8,731 nucleotides of DNA from Candidatus Mcinerneyibacteriota bacterium. Its GTDB lineage: Bacteria > AUK180 > JAQVHJ01. Below the pieces are notes generated by a model. That model had not been told where the DNA came from and ran no database searches. It worked only from the letters and a program-made list of their open reading frames with translations. Shown here one piece after another: positions 2,758 to 8,731 of the stretch. Each line of letters opens with the position of its first letter. The stretch's first letter is position 1. The stretch spans positions 1 through 8,731 of the forward strand of contig DAOVMD010000101.1 in NCBI GenBank assembly GCA_030630935.1. The letters run 5' to 3'. The position numbers were made by a program, and so were the translations under genes.

Positions 2758-2958
2758 ATACAATTCATCAATAACCCATAGAACTTTTTCTATATCTATA
2801 ATTTTATCATTCTTATAAAAAAAATATTTATTTATCAAATCAAAATATGGATCCTCTTTTATTTCTTTTGGTAATTTTTCTAAAAATTCAATTGTTGTTG
2901 GATAATTATCTGGATCTACCGCTTTTGAAGCTCCTGCTCCTGCAAAAATTAAAATCAT
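2719..2958 (-). pseudogene. Truncated SIR2-like protein, N-terminal about 67 residues
   Basis: The product opens MILIFAGAGASKAVDPDNYPTT. The GAGAS loop at residues 7-11, after a hydrophobic strand, is the NAD-binding start of SIR2-family domains, and 'YPTT.EF...LP' shortly after is usual in defence-type SIR2 proteins that deplete NAD+. SIR2 domains normally run 200 residues or more and include catalytic Asn and His residues further on, which are missing. The last 12 or so residues (IGCRPLSSVLVN) are translated from dispersed repeat copy 3, so the native reading ends near 2758. The ATG overlaps the TGA of the TOPRIM gene as ATGA, and GGAG lies eight bases upstream, which implies translational coupling. 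The fragment is almost certainly non-functional as an enzyme. Confidence 0.72.
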
Positions 2959-4718
2959 TTTTCGCTCTCCTTAATAATTTCACCGAAATGTCCTGACATT
3001 TGATTTATTTTCCAGATGTCATAGTTTACCGGTTGATGATTTTTGCTTGCTAAATTTATAATATTAGAAATATGCTTTAGTATTTTTCTTGTAAATTCAT
3101 TATTTATATCTTTCTCTTTTTTAGGATTTTTTAAAATTAAATTTAAAAGGATTTCATGCATCTCTATCTTATTTAAACCATAATCTGTTTTTTCCTTATA
3201 CAGTATTTTTAATGTATATTTATTGGTTTTATCTTCGTCAAAAGATTTCATACACCTAGATACATCTTCCTTCTTAAATTTATATTTACTATTACATAAA
3301 ATGGTTAGTGCTTTTGCTAATTCCCTTGAAGAGAAATTATCAAATTCAAAGTTTTTCTCCCATAAGATTATATATTCTTCTTTTGTTACCATTCTTCCTG
3401 GGGTGAAGATAGATTCCTTTTTAAGTAATCTATCTTTAGTTATTTTTGCCTTGCCTTCATTATCCATAATTAATATAACTATAGTTTGAAGAGAATGGTA
3501 TTCATCTATAAATTTTTTAAGTGCAATATATTTATCATCTTTTTTGTCCCCAACAATATTATCAATACCATAAAAATCTCTAATATCAATCCCAAAAACA
3601 TTAATATTATATCCAAATAATTTGGATAAAGCATTAGTAATAAATTCTTTTTCACTCTTACCTTCAACTATAATAATTACTTTTGGTCTAGGATTTAATT
3701 TATATCTATTTACTAAATATTCAAGATATTTTGTTTTATTTTCAGCTTTAATATCCTTATGAAACCTTGCTAATGAATATAATCGTGAAGCATAAGGAGG
3801 ATCTAATTCATTTTTATTGATATCCTTATAAAAAAGGCGAATCATATATTCCATTGAATATAATAATTGAGCATATAATGCATTGTATCGTAAATTCTTT
3901 TTTTCAGAATATGAAATATATTGTATTAACTCATACCAACTTCTTAAAGGATCAATATGCTCAACATAACGCTTCATTTCATCATGAAGTTTACTAATTT
4001 TATCATTTTTTAAGTCTAATCCTTTTTTAATTGTTTTAGGTTTCCAGCTTTTACGTAATTCCCACCACCAATTATCGTGAAGCTCAAGTGCTGGAGTTTT
4101 AATATGTATTGTTCTTTGATCAGTTAATGTTTGAGGATAATAACGATTTGAGATTATTTGACAAATAATTGCTGTTTCATTCTCATCTTTTATATTACTT
4201 GCACGTCTACATGAGAAATTAATTGTTTCTCTTCTTTTTTGAAAATAATTTTTACTTTGTGAGCTTGATAAATTTTTTATTATAAATGTATTATATGTTC
4301 GAGAACTACACCTTAATACCTTTTGTAATGGATAAATCTGAAAAATAGAATAATAACTTTCAATTTGATATTTTTGCTTTTTATTATAAAAATATTTCCA
4401 TGCTCTAAACTTTTTTAATTTTGAATTCCATAATAAATTATCCTTCAACAATAAGGTTAAATTACTTTTCTTAAAATCAGGATACCTTATTTCACTTGGA
4501 ATAAAATGTTTGTAATTATCTTTTTCATAATTTTCATATTTTAATCTTAAAAAAGGATAAAATAACTTTTCTTTTTCAAAAGTTTCCAATAATGTTTCAT
4601 TTATCATAATTTTCCTTTTATTACAATATTCAATAAACTTTTTAGTATTCAATAATGGGCATATTATAAAAGATTCGTGCTTAATGAATAATTTCAAATA
4701 ATCCTTATTTATACTCAC
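2955..4718 (-). CDS. TOPRIM (OLD-like) domain protein of unassigned family
   Basis: This 587-residue protein has a TOPRIM domain at about residues 345-470: a strand plus VIIIVEGKSEKEFI, with the conserved Glu at 352, and VILIMDNEGKAK, with D419 and E421 where most TOPRIM folds have DxD. The following WEKNFEFDNFS segment resembles the region after the TOPRIM core in OLD-family nucleases. The N-terminal 340 residues are rich in Lys, Tyr and Trp (DNWWW at 215-219) and I do not recognise them; no Walker A motif is visible, so the ATPase part of classical OLD/GajA proteins is absent. A metal-dependent nuclease or toprim-type effector is a reasonable guess. The start is GTG at 4718, with GAGGAG five bases upstream inside the type IIG remnant. 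It is followed by the SIR2 remnant with an ATGA overlap. It has no signal peptide or membrane segment. Confidence 0.75.
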   Translation of the reverse strand: MSINKDYLKLFIKHESFIICPLLNTKKFIEYCNKRKIMINETLLETFEKEKLFYPFLRLKYENYEKDNYKHFIPSEIRYPDFKKSNLTLLLKDNLLWNSKLKKFRAWKYFYNKKQKYQIESYYSIFQIYPLQKVLRCSSRTYNTFIIKNLSSSQSKNYFQKRRETINFSCRRASNIKDENETAIICQIISNRYYPQTLTDQRTIHIKTPALELHDNWWWELRKSWKPKTIKKGLDLKNDKISKLHDEMKRYVEHIDPLRSWYELIQYISYSEKKNLRYNALYAQLLYSMEYMIRLFYKDINKNELDPPYASRLYSLARFHKDIKAENKTKYLEYLVNRYKLNPRPKVIIIVEGKSEKEFITNALSKLFGYNINVFGIDIRDFYGIDNIVGDKKDDKYIALKKFIDEYHSLQTIVILIMDNEGKAKITKDRLLKKESIFTPGRMVTKEEYIILWEKNFEFDNFSSRELAKALTILCNSKYKFKKEDVSRCMKSFDEDKTNKYTLKILYKEKTDYGLNKIEMHEILLNLILKNPKKEKDINNEFTRKILKHISNIINLASKNHQPVNYDIWKINQMSGHFGEIIKESEK

Positions 4719-4773
4719 ACATTCTCCTCGATTATTTTAATTTCTTCTTTGGTTAGGTTGTATAGTTTATAGA
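4714..4773 (-). repeat. 60-bp direct repeat, copy B
   Basis: This stretch matches 5987-6046 at 58 of 60 positions (differences at 4719 and 4730). It covers the last 18 or so codons and stop of the type IIG enzyme, including the GAGGAG that serves the next gene. The two copies are 1273 bases apart and flank the Fic gene. Confidence 0.95.
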
Positions 4774-4831
4774 ATAATTTAACAATCTGCTGTATTAATT
4801 CTTTGATGTGTCTGTTAGGGTTATTACTCAT
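4715..4831 (-). pseudogene. Remnant of a second type IIG enzyme C-terminus, 38 codons
   Basis: Reading from an ATG at 4831-4829, with AAGG five bases upstream, the frame encodes 38 residues ending KLFYKLYNLTKEEIKIIEENV and TGA. The intact enzyme ends QLVYKLYNLTKEEIKIIEENA. Before the shared tail, the two are alike at protein level (IKELIQQIVK versus IDIIDNQIDQ) but diverged in DNA, so this looks like the tail of a related allele, not a simple fresh copy. It might still be translated, since its end supplies the ribosome binding site of the TOPRIM gene and could couple its translation. No independent function is evident. Confidence 0.75.
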
Positions 4832-4851
4832 AGAGACCTTTACCTATTTTT

Positions 4852-4900: not shown

Positions 4901-4950
4901 TGTCACAGTATTGTCACAGTAATATGTCATAGTAATATGTCATAGTAACT
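4901..4950. repeat. 13-bp tandem repeat overlapping the Fic stop codon
   Basis: Four units run head to tail: 4901-4911 (11 bases), 4912-4924, 4925-4937 and 4938-4950, with plus-strand consensus TGTCAYAGTAATA. The TGA of the Fic gene (4942-4940) lies in the last unit. Adding or losing downstream units would not change the Fic product. The array lies just upstream of the possible promoter at 4852-4879, so it could also be a set of operator-like sites; that is inference. Confidence 0.8.
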
Positions 4951-5986
4951 CATAATATTTTGTTGGATCTGTCTTACTTTTTGAAATTTCCTTAATAAAT
5001 CTTAATTTAACTAATTTAGATAAATCACGCTGAACAGTTCTCTTTACAAAACCATATTTTTTAATTATTTTTTCTACAGACACACGACTTTCTTTAACGA
5101 TAAATAATAGTATTTTTTCCTGTCGATAATTCAAATTAGATTGTTTAGCTTTATCTTTAATAACTTCTTTTTTTATCGCCAGCTCTCCTTTTATCTTAAC
5201 TTCAATAAGCTGGTTTTTCAATCCTTCTGTAAAATATTCAAGCCACAATGTCATGTCCATATTATTTTTTCGGACAGATTGAATTGCATTATAATAATCT
5301 CTACGATTTTTATCATAATACTCTGATATCGAGAATAGTTTCTTGAAATCATAACCATTTTTATAAAGGATTAAAGTAGAAATCAGGCGTGCTGTTCTAC
5401 CGTTTCCATCTAAAAAAGGATGGATATCAACAAATTGGTATTGAGAAATACCTGCAATAAGAACAGGCGAAATATCCAAACTTTTATTTAACCAGCTAAA
5501 AAAAACTTTCATCAATTTGGGAAGTTTATCCGGAGATGGTGGTGTATAAATTATTTGTTTTGTTAAAGAATTAACTACATAGTTTTGAACCTTTCTATAT
5601 TTACCTGGTTCAAGGATTCCACCTCTAACATTATCAACTAAAATTCTATGAATTTCTTTTATTAAATTTTCAGTAATCTTAGATTTTTTGTCAAGATATT
5701 CAGCTATAAAATCCATTGCGCTTTTATAATTCAATATTTCCTGAAGATCATCTTTTCTTATTCCCTTTATAGTCTTCCCTGATAATATCTTTTTTGCTTG
5801 AGCTAAAGTAAGCTCAGTTCCTTCAATATGAGTAGAATGGTGAGCCTCAAGAATAATGGCCTTGCTTTGCATCGCTCTAATCCAATCTTGCTTTAATTTA
5901 GCTGCTTCTAAAAATCCTCGTGCTCGTTCTATCTCAAGAAGACAATTATTTATACTATTGGTAATTGTAAATTTTGGTTTAAACAT
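4940..5986 (-). CDS. Fic family protein (class II) with C-terminal winged helix
   Basis: Fic enzymes usually transfer AMP from ATP to a hydroxyl side chain of a target protein. The complete active-site motif HPFLDGNGRTAR is present at residues 189-200 (catalytic H189), with a target-docking flap (NYVVNSLTKQIIYTPPSP) at about 135-152. The N-terminal STHIEG (51-56) matches the [S/T]xxxE[G/N] inhibitory helix that blocks ATP binding in class II Fic proteins, with E55 the expected inhibitory glutamate. Residues about 285-347 form a winged helix (FVKRTVQRDLSKLVKLRFI), suggesting DNA binding or self-regulation. At 348 residues it has a typical length. The ATG at 5986 is preferred because GAGGAG (6002-5997) lies ten bases upstream; an ATG at 5995 would have one base of spacing. 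It begins right after the type IIG stop, so the two are co-transcribed. Its target is unknown. Confidence 0.9.
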   Translation of the reverse strand: MFKPKFTITNSINNCLLEIERARGFLEAAKLKQDWIRAMQSKAIILEAHHSTHIEGTELTLAQAKKILSGKTIKGIRKDDLQEILNYKSAMDFIAEYLDKKSKITENLIKEIHRILVDNVRGGILEPGKYRKVQNYVVNSLTKQIIYTPPSPDKLPKLMKVFFSWLNKSLDISPVLIAGISQYQFVDIHPFLDGNGRTARLISTLILYKNGYDFKKLFSISEYYDKNRRDYYNAIQSVRKNNMDMTLWLEYFTEGLKNQLIEVKIKGELAIKKEVIKDKAKQSNLNYRQEKILLFIVKESRVSVEKIIKKYGFVKRTVQRDLSKLVKLRFIKEISKSKTDPTKYYELL

Positions 5987-6046
5987 CTCACGCATTCTCC
6001 TCTATTATTTTAATTTCTTCTTTGGTTAGGTTGTATAGTTTATAGA
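5987..6046 (-). repeat. 60-bp direct repeat, copy A (end of the type IIG gene)
   Basis: This is the partner of 4714-4773 (58/60 identical), covering the final codons, stop and embedded GAGGAG of the intact enzyme gene. Recombination between the copies would delete 1273 bases including the Fic gene and leave the enzyme gene complete (with one conservative end change) and directly followed by the TOPRIM gene. Confidence 0.95.
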
Positions 6047-8731
6047 CGAGTTGGTCGATTTGATTGTCAATTATATCAATCTGTTTCTGGTAATGTTTTT
6101 TGTCCTGTTCTGTCTTTGCATTATGAAACTTCTTCTGAACCTCTAACATTTGATCAACAAGATTAACTAATTTATCATGAGATTTTATTCCATCATTATT
6201 TTTAAAGTCAATATTATTTATTGGGAAACTTTTTAATTCTTTAACTTTAAATTGAGGAAATATTTTTCTCTGGAATTTATCATATTTTTTCTCAAACCAA
6301 AACGAAATAATTTTTGAATTTAAAATACCTAATATATATTCAAAAGAGTAATCATTCTTTACATTAAATACTACCATACTATTTATATCATTTAAAAAAT
6401 ATTTTTCTGTATAAATAGCATTTATACAATAAGGTGGTTTGGATGGTATTTGCCTTACTAATATTCTTGGACAATTAAATGGAACCGATTTTCTTGGTTC
6501 CGCAAGAAAATCTCCATATTTCAAATATTCTTTAGACCAGCTTAGATAATATCTTTGCACATCTTTTCCTTCAAGATATTTTATGTCTTTATTATCTAAC
6601 TTCTTTTTACTATGAAATATTCTATTATTCTTTGCAAAATCTTTTTGAGGAGGTTTACCCTTTCCTGTTTGATAAGCCTTTAATCCTGTTGATACTATTG
6701 TAATGTCTTCTAATTTTATTGATTTTTTTTCTATTTTTGAAATAATGTTTTTTAATTTTATATTTTTATATAAATTAATTTGTATTATATCATCTTTTAA
6801 TATTTCATAAAATGATACGGTAGCTATCTTGTTTATTGAATTAATATCATTGCTTTCGTAAAGATAAACATTTTTAGGTTTACCTTTTTTAAATATTAAT
6901 ATTGAAGTATCAACATTAGCCCCTATAAATACTTTATATAAAATATTTATAATTTTAACTGATCCAGTAGATGAAATTATAAAATCCCTAAATATTTTCA
7001 AACTACTAATGGTAAGCCAATTATTTGGTATAATAAATCCCAATGTTCCATTTTTAATTAATTTGCTAAATGCCATTTCTACAAACATCATATATGTATT
7101 TAATTGATAATTTTGATGTTCATATTTATTATAAAAATACTCTTTTTCACATTTTGTAAATCCTTTATCTCTTGTAAAAACATACGGTGGATTTCCAATC
7201 ACTACATCGAATCCGCCGTTTTTCATGATTTCGGGGAAGCCATCTTTACCGTCCCAGTCGAAGACGTTTATTTTTCGTTTCTCGTCGTCGTCAAATAGGG
7301 ATAGGTTTTGTCCCTGGTAAAAGTCACTTCCGATGAGTGAGTTACCGCACTTAATGTTATTCGACAGGTCAGGTAGGAGTTTGAAATCGGAGATCTTGAA
7401 TAGCATTCCTGCAGATTCCTGGTTCTCGTGCTCCATTAGTTTCAAGAGTAACGATAACTTTGTAACTTCAACTGCCTGCTGATCAATGTCAACTCCATAA
7501 ATATTATTCAGGAGAATATTCTGTTTTTCTGCAATGGTTAAACGAAATGTGTTCTCAGAAACCTGGTAAATTTTACTGTCCTTCAGTGTTTTTTTTATTC
7601 GTTTTTTATCGGTGTAGTATTCCAGGTGATAGTCCATTAAATATTGATATGCACCGAGGAGGAAGGAGCCTGACCCGCAAGCGGGATCCATGATGCGAAT
7701 GTTTTTGATCGCCTTCGGGGACATTCGCTTACGAGAGCCGAGAACAGAGAGCTGACCCTGTACCACTGCTTCGCTTGGGTGCAGGGCGCCGGAACTGTCG
7801 TTTGACTGAGAACTACTGTTTGACTGTTTTGATTGCCGCGCTTTAGCTCGTGGCTGGAGTGGAACGGAAGTCATCCCGACGCGTCGGGACAATGACAAAT
7901 TATTATTTTGAGTTAGATTGCCGCGCTGCGCTCGCAATGACAACTCAAAATTACCTATTAATGCACCTACTGTGTTTTGGACGATGTAGTCGACGATGTA
8001 TTGTGGTGTGTAATAGACTCCGCCGGCTTTTCGGACTTCGGGTTTCTCTTCTATTTTTGCCTGGTGACTTGGTGTTAACCTGATAACTTTTCCCAGGAAC
8101 TGTTCATAGATATTTCCGAGGATCTCGACTCCGAGGACAGAGAACTCATACGGGCATGCCGGGTAGTATAGTTCTTTTATAATTGATTTCAAGATATGAT
8201 CATCTATCTCGAGATTATTAATGAACTTTTCCTTCTTGAACAGTCCGGCATTATATTTCTTATCAGCCCTTTGAAAAACTTCGGTTAGCTCAACCATAAT
8301 ATTTTCTGTATCGGTTAATTTCATCAGCATCCCGTACTCTTCCATCTGTCTATCTTCAGCAATGCGGAGGAAGATTATCCGGTCAATGATTTTCTGAACT
8401 GCATAGTTAAGTTCATAGATGCTTACGTCCTGGTTCCGGAGTGCGATCACACGAGCTAACCTTGAACGCCAGTCCTCAATAAGTTTCAGGAACTCCTTAT
8501 CAACTTCACTGGTTCCCTTTTTCCGTTTCTTATCAACGATATACCTGTCAAAACTCCCTTTTAGGATGGCTTCCTTGGAAAATGCCCCGTTAATAAAATC
8601 CCACTCTTTCTGATACTCGTCATACGTACAGTAGAAAATCCTGGCGACACTTGCTTTATCTTTATGTGAAGGCTTTATCCTTGTATCATAAACCGCGAAC
8701 TCTTCAAAATCTGTCAGGATAGATAATGGAA
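5988..8731 (-). CDS. Type IIG (Eco57I-like) restriction enzyme / adenine-N6 methyltransferase, 5' end off window
   Basis: The frame is open to the right edge, giving 913 complete residues without the N-terminus. The first visible residues (PLSILTDFEEFAVYDTRIKP) and the helical stretch ending IIDRIIFLRIAEDR are the linker and helical domain typical of type IIG enzymes, so the GTG at 8450 is internal. The methyltransferase follows: YYTPQYIVDYIV (240 on), the SAM-binding motif DPACGSGSF (348-356) and catalytic NPPY (513-516), diagnostic of adenine-N6 methylation. The remainder is a TaqI-type target-recognition region and a C-terminal coiled coil (about 850-913). The expected PD-(D/E)XK nuclease would lie beyond the window. 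The oddities are a repeat-derived insert before DPACG and an abrupt drop in G+C after NPPY. A BREX PglX protein is a less likely alternative. The single frame suggests it is intact. Confidence 0.92.
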   Translation of the reverse strand, partial: PLSILTDFEEFAVYDTRIKPSHKDKASVARIFYCTYDEYQKEWDFINGAFSKEAILKGSFDRYIVDKKRKKGTSEVDKEFLKLIEDWRSRLARVIALRNQDVSIYELNYAVQKIIDRIIFLRIAEDRQMEEYGMLMKLTDTENIMVELTEVFQRADKKYNAGLFKKEKFINNLEIDDHILKSIIKELYYPACPYEFSVLGVEILGNIYEQFLGKVIRLTPSHQAKIEEKPEVRKAGGVYYTPQYIVDYIVQNTVGALIGNFELSLRAQRGNLTQNNNLSLSRRVGMTSVPLQPRAKARQSKQSNSSSQSNDSSGALHPSEAVVQGQLSVLGSRKRMSPKAIKNIRIMDPACGSGSFLLGAYQYLMDYHLEYYTDKKRIKKTLKDSKIYQVSENTFRLTIAEKQNILLNNIYGVDIDQQAVEVTKLSLLLKLMEHENQESAGMLFKISDFKLLPDLSNNIKCGNSLIGSDFYQGQNLSLFDDDEKRKINVFDWDGKDGFPEIMKNGGFDVVIGNPPYVFTRDKGFTKCEKEYFYNKYEHQNYQLNTYMMFVEMAFSKLIKNGTLGFIIPNNWLTISSLKIFRDFIISSTGSVKIINILYKVFIGANVDTSILIFKKGKPKNVYLYESNDINSINKIATVSFYEILKDDIIQINLYKNIKLKNIISKIEKKSIKLEDITIVSTGLKAYQTGKGKPPQKDFAKNNRIFHSKKKLDNKDIKYLEGKDVQRYYLSWSKEYLKYGDFLAEPRKSVPFNCPRILVRQIPSKPPYCINAIYTEKYFLNDINSMVVFNVKNDYSFEYILGILNSKIISFWFEKKYDKFQRKIFPQFKVKELKSFPINNIDFKNNDGIKSHDKLVNLVDQMLEVQKKFHNAKTEQDKKHYQKQIDIIDNQIDQLVYKLYNLTKEEIKIIEENA
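5997..6002 (-). promoter_or_regulatory. Embedded ribosome binding site deciding the Fic start
   Basis: GAGGAG at 6002-5997 encodes the two glutamates near the end of the type IIG enzyme and also serves the Fic gene, ten bases from ATG 5986. The identical hexamer at 4729-4724 lies five bases from the GTG of the TOPRIM gene. The shared enzyme tail thus carries a ready-made ribosome binding site for whatever gene follows it. Confidence 0.7.
7870..7896. repeat. Perfect 14-bp palindrome with outer arms
   Basis: CCCGACGCGTCGGG (7875-7888) is its own reverse complement. GTCAT (7870-7874) and ATGAC (7892-7896) extend the hairpin with a short bulge on the right side. It is translated as part of the enzyme (LSRRVGM). 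Confidence 0.85.
7915..7941. repeat. GTCATTGCGAGC-type interspersed palindromic repeat
   Basis: On the minus strand this reads GTCATTGCGAGCGC followed by AGCGCGGCAATCT, an imperfect palindrome of a kind scattered through intergenic regions of many bacterial genomes. Here it is read in frame as LSLRAQRGNL. A decayed relative starts at 7831 (GATTGCCGCGCT). Confidence 0.75.

Follow-up and report, generated by a model that had tools for sequence, protein, structure and literature searches.

The window analysed here is the whole 8,731-nucleotide contig C153 of a 3.16-Mb metagenome bin (80% complete, 471 contigs). It encodes on its minus strand a predicted restriction-modification enzyme whose base composition changes abruptly at the catalytic NPPY motif. 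The locus raises the question whether this change marks the replacement of the recognition region by recombination, as a sequence-only reading had proposed, and, if so, which part of the enzyme was exchanged and whether the adjoining Fic gene was part of the same event. The enzyme gene enters the contig at its edge (8731), where its 5' end is cut off, and extends to 5988. By domain content, the product appears to be a single-chain type IIG enzyme. It matches the Pfam families Eco57I (aa 408-601), N6_Mtase (best stretch 500-629) and TaqI_C (aa 717-837, E 9e-21), and its top PADLOC model is REase_MTase_IIG (PDLC03604, E 5e-154). Motif I (DPACGSGSF, aa 348-356) lies ahead of NPPY (aa 513-516), the order of gamma-class methyltransferases, and the recognition module, a C-terminal TaqI_C, is contained in the same chain. 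The window is cut before the PD-(D/E)xK nuclease domain; the signature PDYxFR...FVEAKK is found in two partial copies of the enzyme on contig C186, and an HSDR_N domain is present in the homologue L125. The C186 copies (L038, G000:C186, 124-1246 and 1460-2582) form a 1.1-kb inverted repeat with 90% identity between the arms. Each arm is a truncated first half of the same type IIG enzyme, and the two converge; the arrangement could be what is left of a decayed locus, or an artefact of assembly.

The hand counts that had drawn attention to the step are exact, with a G+C content of 0.228 at 7021-7200 and 0.450 at 7201-7380 in the sliding profile. With an insertion at about 7725-7955 masked, the best change point in the gene is window position 7184 (log-likelihood gain 46.6; 2-unit interval 7155-7199), which is inside NPPY (7193-7182, codons 513-516 of the visible frame); the step had been placed within a few codons of this motif. 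At third positions alone, the change point is codon 511 (gain 50.5), with G+C falling from 0.48 to 0.16. In 107 control ORFs from the loci retrieved (at least 500 aa, without NPP[YFW]), the gain has a median of 2.5 and a 99th percentile of 21.6; the window gene reaches 53.8 and is exceeded by a single control. The G+C peak of the insertion is ruled out as the source of the step because the change point stays at NPPY when the insertion is masked. Two implications of the sequence-only reading fail. AT-richness does not extend all the way to the C-terminus, given that the last ~45-57 codons return to a third-position G+C of ~0.39-0.42, and the part before NPPY is not host-like. The third-position G+C of the genome averages 0.307 (SD 0.051; 57 ORFs on 16 contigs), and both parts of the enzyme are outliers, at 0.47 before NPPY (above) and 0.12 in the stretch between NPPY and the tail, hereafter the cassette (below). 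The first half is not plainly native, and because it is also unusual, composition alone gives no direction for the replacement in this genome.

The nearest relative with the same backbone, G001, belongs to the same family but to a different genus, and its gene is collinear with the window gene. The two proteins are 83% identical up to NPPY, 30% identical beyond it and 77% identical over the final ~57 residues; counted from motif I on, the values are 0.85, 0.31 and 0.78, and the identity changes 3 codons past the start of NPP and again 3 codons ahead of LVDQML. The G001 gene has a step of its own, with third-position G+C going from 0.56 to 0.14 and to 0.25 in the tail. The window gene can be divided, on the minus strand, into a first backbone part with connector helices and motif I up to NPPY (7182..8731), matched by the Pfam and PADLOC models and with its nuclease domain lost past the contig edge; the motif IV NPPY itself, which is the 5' seam (7182..7193); the exchanged cassette, which comprises methyltransferase motifs V-VIII and the TaqI_C-type recognition domain (6168..7181, 3' border within ~15 bases either way); and a helical C-terminal tail (5988..6167; 77-78% identity to G001, third-position G+C ~0.4). 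This tail goes with the backbone, contrary to the earlier picture of a recognition half that is AT-rich to its end. The window cassette is 56% identical to that of L073, 48% to L083, 44% to plasmid enzymes of E. faecium and Arthrobacter, and 33% to G001. The connector part of the plasmid enzymes has no significant match to the window enzyme, and their motif I part is 25-28% identical to it. By these identities, the window cassette is closer to enzymes on other backbones than to G001, which has the same backbone. No near-identical donor was found, the best relative being that with 56% identity. A phage origin of the cassette was considered and rejected, since neither the 50,697 phage records nor the viral contigs contained a match (the viral scan used strict peptide patterns only).

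In gamma-class methyltransferases, the motif order places NPPY within the catalytic domain. In an AlphaFold2 model of the enzyme (alignment of 50 sequences, mean pLDDT 82), NPPY directly follows the strand 507-512, further methyltransferase strands and helices precede the recognition domain, and the tail consists of two long helices and one short one (845-870, 874-898 and 903-911). The nearest solved folds are CamA, BrxX/PglX, M.BseCI, M.TaqI and MmeI. The seam is thus not the end of the methyltransferase, as had been assumed: NPPY is followed by motifs V-VIII together with several of the fold's strands, and therefore half of the catalytic domain was swapped along with the recognition domain. 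The in-frame insertion (7725..7955, minus strand) is located in the linker between the connector and the methyltransferase, before motif I, and contains a dispersed palindromic repeat, GTCATTGCGAGC...GCGGCAATCT. It is missing in most homologues, its residues 263-332 are disordered in the model (pLDDT ~30), and 60 nt of it recur at 95-98% identity in 5 other contigs. The G001 homologue has a differing insertion of the same kind in the same linker (L060, about 750-860). The insertion is similar to palindromic elements that integrate into genes where these encode disordered linkers.

The same architecture was followed through 85 full-length homologues from many phyla, including archaea and isolates, which were collected mainly by conserved first-half patterns. 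Third-position G+C falls after NPPY in 81 of the 85 and usually recovers in the tail, with means of 0.56-0.57 before NPPY, 0.37 after it and 0.53 in the tail; the drop also shows at fourfold sites, where it averages 0.25. The strongest case is L106 (0.95, 0.37 and 0.95 in the three parts), with the first edge exactly at NPP. In 44 homologues with strong two-edge fits, the median first edge is 0.5 codon from NPP, and 21 of these edges fall within 5 codons of it. In the 69 loci for which the local host composition could be estimated, from short flanks, the first half follows it with a slope of 0.89 and a mean difference of +0.015. The cassette does not track the host and is 0.175 below it at third positions.

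The descent of the parts differs as well. Pairwise identity of the first half correlates with that of the tail at rho 0.45 and with that of the cassette at rho 0.08, in pairs that share members and hence are non-independent and with cassette alignments that become uncertain near 20% identity (one duplicate record was excluded from the pairwise tests). Identity of the first halves reaches at least 75% in 27 pairs, yet 22 of these have cassettes less than 35% identical; of the 11 close pairs examined, 10 have the protein break 3-5 codons past the NPP start. Conversely, the cassette is shared better than the backbone in L106/L133 (0.59 vs 0.42) and in L104/L142 (0.59 vs 0.41), and related cassettes can keep a similar composition on compositionally different backbones (L055/L054, L106/L133). 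Cassettes with 60% identity or more also sit on different backbones in L096/L101 and L108/L068. When the cassette tree is imposed on the connector, the loss is ~89% of that incurred with label-shuffled trees, compared to ~10% for the motif I tree used as a control; connector and cassette share 4 of 79 splits, and connector and motif I 25 of 79. Separate trees of the parts before and after NPPY, which the sequence-only reading had proposed, are therefore nearly unlinked, unlike the control split. That reading had regarded the same step in all homologues, together with congruent trees for both halves, as the mark of a constraint. The step is indeed nearly universal (81/85) but the trees are not congruent, and the exchange stands. 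Constraint on the protein as the cause of the step is ruled out, because the step is equally strong at fourfold sites and the halves differ in history.

Two patterns among the homologues deserve mention in their own right. In a subgroup (L090, L094 and L119), the composition edge is ~170 codons after NPPY, near the border of the methyltransferase and recognition domains, and L094 and L119 share the stretch between the seams (0.70) and not the recognition domain (0.35); together with the later break, this shows that a second seam also exists at that border. Furthermore, within one genome (G046), L044 and L045 (contigs C53 and C33) have first halves 87% and cassettes 30% identical.

Taken as a whole, the gene very probably consists of two pieces of different descent, with the stretch from NPPY to the tail replaced from a different, AT-richer source. 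Replacement of the recognition region, as originally proposed, is backed by the identity profiles, the incongruence of the trees and the similarity across backbones. The same backbone occurs with different recognition parts, the same recognition part occurs on different backbones, and the histories are incongruent, as expected of recognition-domain movement. More generally, the seam recurs in bacterial and archaeal relatives, and a constant catalytic motif seems to be the point at which type IIG enzymes exchange their recognition halves. In the mechanism that we propose, the backbone (connector, motif I to NPPY and the last ~57 residues) would stay together, and motifs V-VIII with the TaqI_C-type recognition domain would be replaced as one stretch between NPPY and the tail. 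Donor and recipient would recombine at two blocks of DNA, FDxVIGNPPY upstream and LVxxML...LYxLTxEEIKI downstream, which are conserved because the encoded protein is conserved. Recombination at the NPPY and tail blocks is the most likely route. Both activities of type IIG enzymes use one recognition module, so that its replacement alters cutting and methylation together (PMC4081073). With one recognition domain for both activities, a new specificity could arise without self-damage. The DNA sequence recognised by the window enzyme probably differs from that of the G001 enzyme, and the benefit of such a swap might be escape from adapted phages.

Several other explanations of the step have to be weighed against the exchange. 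The part after NPPY could simply be fast-evolving, under diversifying selection and AT-biased mutation, without any exchange. Rapid divergence is expected of recognition domains, and a step in 81 of 85 homologues could come from such a general process. This process would not produce nearly unlinked trees of the halves, pairs that share the cassette better than the backbone (the L106/L133 and L104/L142 cases) or a cassette that resembles plasmid enzymes with unrelated N-termini, and we consider this explanation very unlikely. Shared cassettes on different backbones refute fast evolution as the sole cause; it may still contribute to composition, and part of the low G+C of the cassette could stem from AT-biased mutation in DNA that evolves rapidly. 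A switch for phase variation, in which silent cassettes are shuffled into the expressed gene, is brought to mind by the two inverted N-terminal copies on C186, 90% identical to each other, but these copies are backbone and not cassette, and no second cassette was found in the ~80% complete genome, which makes such a switch highly improbable. Least credible is a chimera, in which assembly or binning would have put two unrelated pieces together. The bin is fragmented and carries partial backbone copies on C186, as would suit an artefact, but the reading frame continues across the seam without interruption, the gene is collinear with G001 at both borders, and the architecture with its step recurs in most of the independently assembled homologues, isolates included.

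It had further been suggested that the adjoining Fic gene was replaced along with the recognition region. This gene (4940..5995, minus strand) encodes a SoFic-like, AMPylase-type Fic-domain protein with a C-terminal HTH (Pfam Fic, E 5e-20; PADLOC SoFic, E 2e-68; motif HPFLDGNGRTAR) and a possible N-terminal inhibitory motif, STHIEG, and overlaps the stop of the enzyme gene. Arrival of the cassette and the Fic gene as one block would fit the AT-richness of both (third-position G+C 0.12 and 0.20, respectively) and the correlation, across homologues, between the drop in the cassette and that in the next gene (rho 0.68), but this correlation can stem from comparing both with the same backbone. The tail between the cassette and Fic belongs to the backbone, none of the 26 cassette-sharing pairs has the downstream gene in common, and Fic is flanked by direct repeats of its own, so that joint arrival is improbable and the claim of co-movement is not sustained. 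The 60-bp repeats (58/60 identical, minus strand) lie at the 3' end of the enzyme gene (copy 1, 5987..6046) and at the end of a 38-codon leftover tail (4721-4834) before the next gene (copy 2, 4714..4773). The next gene is an AT-rich ORF of 587 aa without an assigned family (2955..4718, minus strand; no Pfam or PADLOC match), which begins within copy 2. Fic and this ORF each start at an enzyme-type end, and Fic between its repeats looks like an insertion/excision unit.

The neighbour genes of the homologues are varied (HEPN, SIR2, TIR, DUF3800 and Abi_C, and also ordinary genes) and AT-rich on average. Given this variety and the 0/26 count, the slot after the enzyme is variable independently of the cassette. 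For SoFic-type proteins, abortive infection has been reported as the mode of action (PMC12249575). In L125 (Nitrospirota, 5635-9375), a single ORF encodes a type IIG enzyme whose tail is followed by a fused Fic domain, a hint that the enzyme and Fic are functionally linked; the gene after this enzyme resembles a 330-aa gene beside the G001 enzyme (27%, E 9e-35). Elsewhere in the window, a gene with Schlafen/AlbA_2, HATPase_c_4 and HTH domains (977-2383) has one in-frame TGA and is probably broken, and AAGACAGAAGACAGAGGCCGGCACCCTA is repeated at least three times between genes (181-200, 935-960 and 2735-2755).

A broader scheme, to which we would give an even chance, is that type IIG enzymes of bacteria and archaea consist of a fixed backbone in which a docking slot lies between NPPY and the conserved tail, that AT-rich half-enzymes, drawn from a pool shared with non-orthologous backbones, are replaced in this slot so frequently that they seldom acquire the composition of the host, and that the position directly downstream is a second slot, exchanged independently and occupied by assorted defence genes. 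If the exchange of recognition halves is real, similarity over the whole gene cannot predict the recognised sequence, the best whole-gene relative often having a different recognition half. The cassette alone might predict it, because cassettes recur on different backbones. With its fixed borders, the composition sandwich would offer an easy way to detect past exchange by scanning any genome, which would make the turnover of restriction specificity measurable from sequence. In addition, two halves of one catalytic domain would be naturally joined at NPPY, and this seam could be useful for studying the construction of specificity modules.

Recognition-domain movement is already known as a kind of event. 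Type IIG enzymes have been named in passing among those with moving recognition domains (PMC7379913). In the literature searched, which included few subscription papers, we found no description of the NPPY and tail borders or of the composition sandwich in type IIG enzymes. The window enzyme is like the Eco57I, BpuSI and TspGWI-like type IIG enzymes in being a single chain with a gamma-class motif I, NPPY and a C-terminal TaqI_C domain; homologues have an N-terminal nuclease domain, whereas that of the window copy is out of view beyond the contig edge, and the window copy differs in its in-frame repeat insertion. PglX/BrxX of BREX and CamA, the closest solved folds, are also gamma-class methyltransferases with a built-in recognition domain, but their sequence similarity to the window enzyme is mainly around NPPY, and no BREX genes are present in the window. 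Recognition domains of type III enzymes, as far as the citing article relates, move between non-orthologous genes by way of conserved motifs (Furuta and Kobayashi, cited in PMC3983042); these enzymes are beta-class with a different motif order, whereas the borders in the window are NPPY and the C-terminal tail of a gamma-class single-chain enzyme. Shuffling of recognition domains and Domain Movement have been described for type I HsdS (PMC3077401, PMC3983042), and reassortment of recognition domains, as summarized in a later article, for type IIB enzymes (Jurenaite-Urbanaviciene 2007, cited in PMC4081073). Both share with the window enzyme the modular exchange of recognition domains between conserved flanks. 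However, in type I and type IIB systems the recognition domain is located in an S subunit or in an S module with repeats, whereas in the window enzyme half of the catalytic domain moves along with it.
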